From positions 1 to 15,293 of the forward strand of contig CADEGS010000096.1 in assembly GCA_902826945.1 (NCBI GenBank): a DNA stretch of 15,293 nt, read 5' to 3'. This document shows, one piece after another, positions 1,506 through 3,591 of the stretch. This DNA comes from an uncultured bacterium (lineage in GTDB: Bacteria > Planctomycetota > UBA1135 > GCA-002686595). Within the stretch, counting starts at the first letter, position 1; each line of letters starts with the position of its first letter. Below the pieces are notes generated by a model that was not told the origin of the DNA, made no database searches, and worked only from the letters and a program-made list of their open reading frames with translations. The translations under genes were made by a program, and so were the position numbers.

Positions 1506-3410
1506 ATGAAGCGCGACGTCCTCCCGATCCTGTTCGGCGTGCTCCTCGCGGGGCTCCTCTCGGCCACGCTGCTCGTGGCCGGGCTCAAGGCCGGCATCAA
1601 CCCCGGCGTCTCCCCGCTGGTGATCCTGTTCGCCTGGTCGGCCTTCGGCCGGCGCGTCGCGGGCGAGGGCGGGGCGCGCTTCCTCAACCTGGCCCAGGTC
1701 GCGGGCTCGGGCGGCGTGGCGATCGCCGTCGGCGTGCAGTTCACCGCGCCGGTGGCGCAGATCGTGAGCGTGGACCAGGGCGTGGCCGCGCTCGAGGCCG
1801 AGGGCGTCGCGATCCCGCGCGGCCTGGACGGCCGGCCGCGCGTGGACGCCGCGCTCTTGCGGCTCCTCTCCGAGCGCGGCCATCCCGTCCCGCCCGTGGA
1901 CGTCCCGACCCTCATGCTGCTCTCGGCCGCGGGAGCGCTGATCGGCTTCGGCTTCGTCGGGCTGGGCGCGCGCCGCTTCCTCGCCGACCCGACGCTGCCC
2001 GCGCCCGAGGCGCGCGCGTGCGTGACGCTGATCCGCGCCGCGACCGCGGAGCGCGCGCAGCGGCCGCGCCTCGGGCGCTCGCTGGGCCTGGGCCTGGGCG
2101 CGAGCTTCGCCGCGCGCCTGGCGGTCAAGACGGGGCTCGCGAGCGAGCACGTCGCGCTCGGGAGCGGCCGCCTGGCGCACGCGCTCGAGCTCCCCTTCGT
2201 GCCGATCTACCTCGGCATCGGCGGCCTGCTGACGCTCTCGACGGCCCTGCTCGTGTTCGCCGGCGCGCTCTTGCACGCCGGCGGCGACGCGCTGCTCGCC
2301 CTGCTGCCCGCGGGCGGCGCGCTCGCCGAGCGCTTCCCCGCGACCTCGATGCGCTGGGCCGGCGGCGCGGCGATGAGCGTGGCGGTCGTGCACTCGCTCT
2401 TGCGCTTCGCGCGCGTGCCGGCGGTGCGCGCCGTCGAGCGCCCGCTGGTGGCGCTCGACCCCCCGCTCGCCCGCGCCTGCCGCGCGAGCGTGGCGCTGGG
2501 CGCGGCCGTCGTCGGGGCCTGGTGCCTGGCGCAGGACGGCGCGACGCCCTTCGCCCTGGCGATGACGGGCGGGGTGCTCGGCTGCGCGGCGGTGATGGTC
2601 GCGCTGGGCGCGCTGCTCTCGCTGCAGATCGGGAGCTCGGCCTCGCCGCTCTCCGGCACGATCTTCGTCACGGCGCTCGTCCTGTGCGCGCTGGCGCTGG
2701 CGCTCGGGCGGCGCTCGCTCGACGACGCGCTGCTCCTGACGCCGCTGCTCGTCGCGGCCTGCGTCGCGGTGGTCGCGGCGAACGACTCGAGCCAGGACTT
2801 CAAGACGCTCGAGCTGTGCGGCATGCGCGTGCAGGCCGGCTTCGCCGCGCAGGCGGCCGGGCTCGCCACCGGCTGCCTGGTCGTGCCCGCGGCGCTCTCG
2901 ATCGCGCACCGCGCCTACGTGCTCGGCAGCGACGAGCTGAGCGCGCCGCAGGGCAAGATGTACGCCACGCTGCTCGACGGCCTGCTCCTGCGCAGCGAGC
3001 TCCCCTGGGCGCCGATCCTGGGCGGGGCGCTGGTGGGCCTGGGGGCGGTCGCGCTCGACGTCGCCGCGCGCCGGCGCGGCCGCCACCTGCCGGCGATGGC
3101 GCTCGCGGTCGGCATCTACCTGCCGGCCGTGCTCGGCACGGGGATCCTGCTCGGCGCGCTGGCGCGGCGCGCGGCCGAGGGCCGCCGCGCGCAGACCAGC
3201 GAGTCCGTCCTGACGGCGGCGGGCCTGATCACGGGCGCGGCGGCGCTCGAGCTCCTGCTCGGCGCGGCGCTGGTGCTCGTGCCCGGCTTCGATGCCGGCC
3301 AGCTCGTCCGGCTCGCGCCGGCCGCATGGCTGCGGGACGCGCTCGGCCTGGCGGGGATCGCCGCGCTGGCGGCGCTGCTCTGGAGGCGCTCGCGGCCGCC
3401 GCCGGGCTAG
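1506..3410 (+). CDS. OPT-family (oligopeptide/metal-chelate) transporter
   Basis: A 634-residue polytopic inner-membrane protein, near the usual size of bacterial OPT proteins. Family features: the first helix runs into AGLKAGINPGVSPLVILFAW (25-44), the counterpart of the YLGLKAG motif; NLAQVAGSGGVAIAVGVQFT (61-80) matches the second conserved helix; DPTLPAPEAR (161-170) matches the conserved hydrophilic P-x-G/A-x-A stretch; and ANDSSQDFKTLELCG (about 425-439) matches the ANDxxQDLKTG block. A hydrophilic loop at about 86-135 separates the early helices. Members import peptides or metal-siderophore complexes with protons; the substrate cannot be read from sequence. The ATG at 1506 is chosen over an in-frame ATG at 1458 because MKRDVLPILFGVLLAG starts directly before the first helix and the 16 extra residues are Pro-rich. 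The TAG stop lies in a CTAG that forms the left edge of the inverted-repeat element. Confidence 0.85.
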   Translation: MKRDVLPILFGVLLAGLLSATLLVAGLKAGINPGVSPLVILFAWSAFGRRVAGEGGARFLNLAQVAGSGGVAIAVGVQFTAPVAQIVSVDQGVAALEAEGVAIPRGLDGRPRVDAALLRLLSERGHPVPPVDVPTLMLLSAAGALIGFGFVGLGARRFLADPTLPAPEARACVTLIRAATAERAQRPRLGRSLGLGLGASFAARLAVKTGLASEHVALGSGRLAHALELPFVPIYLGIGGLLTLSTALLVFAGALLHAGGDALLALLPAGGALAERFPATSMRWAGGAAMSVAVVHSLLRFARVPAVRAVERPLVALDPPLARACRASVALGAAVVGAWCLAQDGATPFALAMTGGVLGCAAVMVALGALLSLQIGSSASPLSGTIFVTALVLCALALALGRRSLDDALLLTPLLVAACVAVVAANDSSQDFKTLELCGMRVQAGFAAQAAGLATGCLVVPAALSIAHRAYVLGSDELSAPQGKMYATLLDGLLLRSELPWAPILGGALVGLGAVALDVAARRRGRHLPAMALAVGIYLPAVLGTGILLGALARRAAEGRRAQTSESVLTAAGLITGAAALELLLGAALVLVPGFDAGQLVRLAPAAWLRDALGLAGIAALAALLWRRSRPPPG

Positions 3411-3428
3411 CCCGCATCCCTCACCACC
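3407..3428 (+). repeat. Left arm of 22-bp perfect inverted repeat
   Basis: CTAG followed by CCCGCATCCCTCACCACC. The whole 22 bp recur exactly as the reverse complement at 3570-3591. The TAG at 3408-3410 is the stop codon of the OPT gene. The outer CTAG can be read either as part of the arm or as a duplicated target site (TA, or CTAG). Confidence 0.95.
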
Positions 3429-3588
3429 CCGCGGCGGAATCGCCGCATCCCTGGCACAGCTCGGCACTTCCCTCCCTCACCGGGTTCGACGACCAGTTCA
3501 TGGTCGCCTCCACGCGCTTCGGTCGCGAAGCACCGATCTGCATCAGGTCTACGACGATTCAGCTCACGAGGTGGTGAGGGATGCGGGC
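3410..3588. mobile_element. MITE-like non-coding inverted-repeat element, possibly IS630/Tc1-mariner type
   Basis: This 179-bp segment is bounded by 19-bp perfect terminal inverted repeats and flanked on each side by TA within CTAG. IS630-family elements are known to duplicate TA and to prefer CTAG targets, which is why I suggest that type. No credible ORF lies inside. Subterminal pairing is partly kept: GAATCG at 3437-3442 against CGATTC at 3555-3560. Two small hairpins sit at the centre, CGACCA-N5-TGGTCG (3490-3506) and GCTTCG-GTCG-CGAAGC (3516-3531). The interior is visibly less GC-rich than both neighbours. It fills the whole gap between convergent stop codons. Alternatives are a long-stem bidirectional terminator or a REP/BIME-type palindromic unit. 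No transposase is present, so any movement would depend on one supplied in trans. Confidence 0.65.
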
Positions 3589-3591
3589 TAG
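3570..3591 (-). repeat. Right arm of 22-bp perfect inverted repeat
   Basis: GGTGGTGAGGGATGCGGG followed by CTAG, the exact reverse complement of 3407-3428. The stop codon of the NHL-repeat lipoprotein gene (TCA on the plus strand, 3593-3595) begins two bases after this arm. Confidence 0.95.

Follow-up and report, generated by a model that had tools for sequence, protein, structure and literature searches.

Insertion sequences of the IS1380 family duplicate 4–5 bp of target DNA and have ends that begin with CC, and piggyBac transposons excise precisely. The RUP and Correia elements are IS630/Tc1-mariner MITEs: small, gene-less and intergenic, with inverted ends, a TA duplication and an IS630-type transposase. 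IS1247, of the IS1380 family, is listed with a 5 bp duplication in one part of PMC3281130, and piggyBac, credited in a section of PMC10140906 with a 4-bp palindromic duplication of TTAA, is paired with IS1380-like elements in a transposase superfamily in a section of PMC5718144. REP/BIME palindromes are described in part of PMC3733652 as 20–40 bp long with a GTAG or CGTC tag, the GTAG type being linked to tyrosine transposases. Among candidate structured RNA motifs, a table in PMC2864571 lists Rhodopirellula-1 for Proteobacteria and Planctomycetes, with no Rfam number.

Here, we describe an element between two convergent genes in a 15,293-base stretch of DNA (the whole stretch analysed, referred to as the window). 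We conclude, with a probability of roughly 0.88, that it is a MITE moved by an IS1380-family transposase, a bacterial relative of piggyBac. Full-length elements with the same kind of ends carry the IS1380 transposase (NF033539), and the short duplication is alike; in contrast to these insertion sequences, the window element is gene-less, its family has a nearly fixed CTAG target that often lies at stop codons, and its structured core gave no match (E ≤ 0.01) in the full insertion sequences searched. The likeness to piggyBac lies in the 4-bp palindromic duplication (TTAA there, CTAG here) and in ends starting with CCC, whereas piggyBac is eukaryotic. Like RUP and Correia, the element is small, gene-less and intergenic with inverted ends, but neither a TA duplication nor an IS630-type transposase was found for it; with REP/BIME sequences its family shares many copies, a palindromic structure and positions near gene ends. 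The open-licence literature searched, in the portions that were accessible, contains no description of this element family.

An element between two convergent stop codons

The features at the junction are as follows.
1503–3410, plus strand: OPT/YSL-type transporter gene (Pfam PF03169, E = 2.6e-23; homologues; open reading frame), ending in the element's left CTAG; start set by inspection (the mechanical frame starts at 1458)
3407–3410, no strand: left target copy CTAG, with 3408–3410 the TAG stop of the OPT gene (from the sequence; 4-bp length from copies with other targets)
3411–3587, minus strand (that of the conserved tip): probable IS1380-type MITE, 177 bp
3411–3428, no strand: left terminal inverted repeat, starting with CCC
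3429–3572, minus strand: structured core (match to model R2, from seven sequences in six other genomes; 39.8 bits, E = 1.8e-9)
3478–3519, minus strand: hairpin tip with GGA/GA internal loop, 7–8 bp stem and loop (model R1, which has the window in its training set, and covariation)
3570–3587, no strand: right terminal inverted repeat
3588–3591, no strand: right target copy CTAG (from the sequence)
3593–4798, minus strand: convergent NHL-repeat putative lipoprotein gene (Pfam PF01436, E = 1.6e-7); start set by inspection

The initial annotation of this locus described a non-coding segment bounded by perfect 22-bp inverted arms and lying between the stop codons of OPT and NHL, and a letter-by-letter check bears this out: the arms at 3407–3428 and 3570–3591 are identical as inverted repeats at 22 of 22 bases (25 nt at 96%). 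The OPT gene ends with the TAG of the left CTAG, and the right CTAG (3588–3591) is followed by G and then by TCA, the NHL stop on the opposite strand, so that it ends two bases short of that stop, as had also been noted. Excising the element together with one CTAG leaves TAG-G-TCA between the two genes, the junction that the annotation had calculated. Across the entire window CTAG occurs only twice, on either side of the element, where base composition predicts 32.6 occurrences. The element has no transposase gene of its own and contains no open reading frame of at least 90 aa, only overlapping mechanical frames. RNA folding of 3400–3600 gives −110.1 kcal/mol (z = −6.97), a value equalled by none of 200 shuffles.

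The 14 best OPT homologues (self excluded) are 56–63% identical to the window protein, those in the list with a named source being mostly from Planctomycetota, and the window looks like a Planctomycetota genome. Elsewhere in the window, a minus-strand cluster of SpoVR, DUF444 and PrkA genes occupies 4926–9547.

A target duplication of 4 bp

The annotation proposed insertion at CTAG with a TA duplication. As CTAG is palindromic, TA and CTAG duplications look alike and the matter is decided by copies on other targets, two of which are flanked by ATAG..ATAG (L359, in G406) and TTAG..TTAG (L361, in G009). To derive ATAG..ATAG from CTAG..CTAG would need two independent C-to-A changes, which argues for a duplication of 4 bp. 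Judged from these flanks, the target duplication is 4 bp, normally CTAG, and not TA, and with that length the element proper comprises the 177 bp of 3411–3587. The flanks are equally compatible with a TA duplication in five cases (L085 and L149 in G372, L254 in G122, L347 in G009 and the insertion sequence in L169). The remainder of the proposal, insertion into CTAG with a duplicated target that regenerates the TAG stop, holds with CTAG as the duplicated unit.

Matching ends on IS1380 elements

Six copies of the IS1380 transposase scored over the cut-off: two in G005, one in G372 (its only match) and one each in G021, G168 and G406. Five of the six have CTAGCCC(G/T) ends, one G005 copy showing TTAG on one side; no such ends were seen for the sixth, in G406. 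The ends of these insertion sequences match those of the window element at 19 of 22 positions in G021 and at 18 and 17 of 22 in G372. The 1.7-kb insertion sequence of G021 (L047/L163) has ends of this kind and a broken gene of the IS1380 family, and judged by its sequence the L047 copy looks inactive. Several copies of the small element occur together with the parent insertion sequence within one genome in G372, G168 and G021. No IS1380 match was obtained in G122, G276, G001, G272, G009 and G220, though these genomes carry such elements or cores. As a separate observation, the IS1380 gene at L047 48–1773 (G021:C155) is split over two frames, and open-frame copies are present in other genomes.

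The annotation had pointed to the IS630 family, with CTAG and TA in the flanks as its ground, and the five cases compatible with a TA duplication suit that idea equally. An IS630/Tc1-type MITE with a TA duplication is nevertheless highly improbable: the matching ends sit on IS1380 elements, the ATAG..ATAG and TTAG..TTAG copies argue for 4 bp, and the IS630-type transposase domain DDE_3 has no match in eight of 11 carrier genomes (G372, G021, G305, G279, G168, G276, G208 and G163). The remaining three (G005, G002 and G122) contain six DDE_3 loci, and five of these, some of them near contig ends, were scanned for TAGCCC or GGGCTA with no match, so that a search of the 11 carriers covering five of the six loci gave no IS630-type transposase with the ends of this element. 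We can practically dismiss a REP/RAYT-type palindrome spread by a tyrosine transposase. The high copy number, palindromic structure and position near gene ends do recall the REP sequences of PMC3733652, as described in part of that source, but the terminal inverted repeats, the duplication of 4 bp and the DDE transposase found with ends of this kind stand against it, as does the length of most copies, 170–197 bp rather than 20–40 bp. The IS1380 assignment agrees with what the sequences contain: ends that match an autonomous IS1380 element, a duplication within 4–5 bp, and the lack of a transposase gene in the element itself.

Copies in other Planctomycetota genomes

All copy counts are from relatives of the window's host, plus the window copy itself. 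Of the genomes behind the 27 OPT loci, 21 were searched, and all 21 gave some match at E ≤ 10, clear only in G002 and G005; G021 gave several end matches in the same search. A sample of 392 Planctomycetota genomes contained 14 with E ≤ 0.001, of which G002 and G372 (interior) and G208, G305, G279 and G163 (ends) were counted as real, the eight others being short interior matches. The strongest was G372 (E = 2e-28), and here a 25-base core pattern with up to two mismatches matched 296 times in 5.9 Mb, against 0 for the reversed control. The further copies at CTAG sites that the annotation had anticipated are found in relatives, with 296 core matches in this one genome.

The G372 set comprises 46 distinct complete copies, cut out by their inner ends without use of the flanks, and 42 of them have CTAG on both sides; they are 175 or 194 bp long (one is 174). 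Across 11 sources, window included, there are 75 distinct complete copies, most of 170–197 bp, with CTAG at both flanks in 63 (the 29 copies from outside G372, window included, were chosen with an acceptance score favouring TA flanks, as were the ends used in the duplication test); a single copy among these 75, from G346, bears ends of another type. These 29 derive from 62 tip hits, the rest of which were contig-cut, weaker-ended or chance-like tips. Plasmid and phage collections yielded 3 and 2 records, respectively, with matches of only 32 and 27 bases that were taken as chance, and viral contigs scanned with 22- and 18-base end patterns gave 0 matches.

Several arrangements of the repeats were seen in passing. 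A second CTAG-flanked palindromic repeat of G372, with ends near CTAGCAGNCTGTGG, adjoins several copies (L070, L081, L085, L094 and others), and elements in this genome also form head-to-tail stacks with one CTAG in common and a core spacing of 178 or 199 bases. Contigs of G305 and G279 break at a repeat end matching the window arm (L061, L062, L072, L073, L077, L079, L084 and L087), at 20–22 of 22 bases (20 of 22 in L079). A 306-bp element in G208 (L059, 657–962) has CTAGCCCGCATCCGTCACCA ends and another interior.

Insertion at stop codons

Copies in G372 were testable where 350 bases or more were available on each side, and by crude gene calls (open frame plus GC by codon position, used throughout this section) the TAG next to the element closes a coding-like frame in 23 of 30 under a whole-frame rule, or in 24 of 30 by a first count. 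The background from the same loci is 11 of 40 other CTAG sites on TAG stops (Fisher p = 8e-5 against 23 of 30), having left out 12 CTAG sites that adjoin GGG or CCC as possible ends of further elements. When sites inside frames are also left out, the comparison becomes 23 of 29 copies versus 11 of 27 other CTAGs (p = 0.006); the excess thus comes in part from target avoidance and purifying selection, and some of it remains in G372. In the other genomes and the window, 15 of 29 copies coincide with a stop, versus 3 of 12 background sites. Silent landing on stops, seen most clearly in G372, is characteristic of the family and not peculiar to the window copy, where the annotation had rightly seen that the insertion harmed neither neighbour: both stops are intact, and the TAG is restored by the duplicated target. 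Orientation relative to the neighbouring gene is even (27 of 67 versus 24 of 67, p = 0.78).

In the mechanism that we propose, a transposase made elsewhere would bind the CCC-starting ends and insert the element at CTAG, a 4-bp palindrome that would end up duplicated at both sides. These GC-rich genomes appear to avoid CTAG, and the sites that do occur would often consist of C plus the TAG of a stop codon, so that insertions would land at gene ends; since the palindromic duplication returns TAG to a gene entering from either side, such insertions would be silent. Mobilisation would occur in trans, by an IS1380 transposase, and excision may be seamless, by analogy with piggyBac. A rare palindromic target that contains a stop would show how the copies of a transposon can number in the hundreds and still spare genes, and the piggyBac habit of a 4-bp palindromic duplication would extend to a bacterial family whose target is a natural safe site.

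The junction in relatives

Convergent orthologues of both genes lie in G002 (locus L002) with stops 6 bp apart and no element between them, reading OPT TGA-CGCGCG-TCA NHL; identity to the window proteins is 57% for OPT and 39% for NHL. The convergent pair is kept within about 130–160 bp in L015 and L016, and in L018 (in G021) with the NHL gene about 1.2 kb away, and model R2 at E ≤ 0.01 detects no core in L002, L015, L016 or L018. The element is present elsewhere in both G002 and G021. L002 is an orthologous absence of the element at the junction in a relative rather than a base-exact empty site. The comparison with sister genomes that the annotation had proposed thus succeeded in part, with a relative that has the same convergent pair without the element, and a base-exact empty site was not among the results; joined flanks of the G122 insertions likewise gave none among 58 genomes (G122 included). 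The orthologues of the gene next to the L250 insertion end without the element, as judged by eye, in G168, G085, G196 and G001.

These junctions bear on whether the palindrome is an old terminator or mRNA-stabilising hairpin kept between the two genes. Its very stable fold and its position between two convergent stops would suit such a role, and the annotation had suggested bidirectional termination or mRNA stabilisation. A pattern scan of 3200–3800 found no U-tract intrinsic terminator and gives the termination idea no support, a stabilising effect of the stem being conceivable; the four relatives above keep the convergent pair with no R2 core at E ≤ 0.01, related copies occur at many other places in relatives, and there is no orientation bias to neighbouring genes, all of which makes the explanation improbable.

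A conserved hairpin core

Conservation is higher in the middle of the element than in its arms: identity is up to 92–94% within query bases 51–134 in G372, whereas matches extending to the left end mostly show 75–81%. Five tips fold alike into a stem, 2 pairs, a GGA/GA internal loop, a stem of 6–8 pairs and a loop. Nine tips found without a model have a covariation score of 0.455 versus 0.156 when shuffled, a value reached in none of 500 shuffles. For 20 of 23 element tips, most of them found with the tip model R1, which favours paired tips, the score is 0.517 versus 0.198 shuffled (0 of 500 shuffles), with slid versions at or below 0.147; in the same 20, 91.8% of cells pair (shuffled mean 74.4) and changes fall on both sides in 10 of 11 pairs. 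The 194–197 bp subtype has 65 predicted pairs, 36 of them with a compensatory change, mostly outside the tip, and a side hairpin is predicted to make a three-way junction.

Model R2 describes this 194–197 bp subtype and was built with the window left out; its match to the window core has an E value that is rough (short calibration). A second, weak window match at 14456–14534 (E = 0.0037) was taken as chance. At E ≤ 1e-5, R2 finds 11 of 392 Planctomycetota genomes, among them G013, which holds the complete isolate genome of Planctomycetes bacterium Pla86 (record L019), and on 12 control-phylum loci it gave no match at E ≤ 0.01. The short model R1 at E ≤ 0.01 hits 12 of 47 control-phylum genomes (none with more than two hits) versus 44 of 392 Planctomycetota; its single hits are at chance level, and we therefore relied on multi-copy families, on hits inside end-bearing palindromes and on the longer R2. 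The core gave no match at E ≤ 0.01 in the full insertion sequences searched with R1 (L161, L162, L169 and L047) and with R2 (L161, L162, L163, L169 and L324). An Rfam 15 covariance scan of window positions 3300–3700 and 13 loci at E ≤ 1 returned three miRNA matches far below gathering scores. Rhodopirellula-1, which the table in PMC2864571 lists with no Rfam number, could have escaped these scans, and the core may conceivably be identical to it.

Two further observations concern the core. An R2 match of 36.7 bits (L022, 9543–9703) lies 1.7 kb past an OPT relative in the MAG 'bacterium isolate Vin_7', and one core subtype (alignment A6; G122, G168, G272, G110, G094 and others) has conserved blocks near TCGTCACGAGG, GCAAGG and CGCAGCAGAA around the tip.

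Probable strand selection and possible vehicles of the core

Stem mismatches outside the tip, read on the tip strand in 23 elements, are G.T rather than A.C in a ratio of 121:26 (108:25 in distinct contexts). All four types lean the same way (A, 22:3; A2, 56:3; B, 23:15; C, 20:5), the elements sharing ancestry and type B being unconvincing by itself, with two members opposite; over the whole stem of five elements found without R1 the ratio is 41:5. As DNA pairing alone predicts equal numbers of G.T and A.C, the fold of one strand seems to have been selected, as RNA or as single-stranded DNA, and a strand-biased mutation process may also lie behind the G.T excess. We prefer to read the core fold as serving the element itself and not the genes on its flanks, since copies are found in both orientations relative to adjacent genes.

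For the core only, it is conceivable, if somewhat doubtful, that what is selected is not an RNA fold but one of single-stranded DNA, or a cruciform, recognised in the course of transposition or replication. G.T is a tolerated mismatch in DNA too, and the lack of orientation to genes would suit a DNA fold; however, the complementary strand would then carry A.C, and an excess of 121 over 26 is not what a strand-neutral cruciform would lead one to expect. Our own suggestion, a tentative one that we hold at a little under even odds, is that the core is a structured RNA module spread through the phylum with transposon ends of several kinds as vehicles, its one-strand RNA fold being kept for the element's own spread or for binding a host factor. 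Should the core prove to be a real RNA, transposons of several kinds would be carrying a non-coding RNA. Tips of this kind do occur in palindromes with other ends: L224 (CTAG-CAGCCCGTTGAAAAAG), L212, L208, L340/L350/L357 (AAGTGGTTTCATAAGT) and L341, the weaker cases being L208 and L212, each a single R1 hit with a long hairpin, and L341, a partial R2 match. The commonest vehicle seen for the core is the IS1380-type ends inserting silently into CTAG stops.
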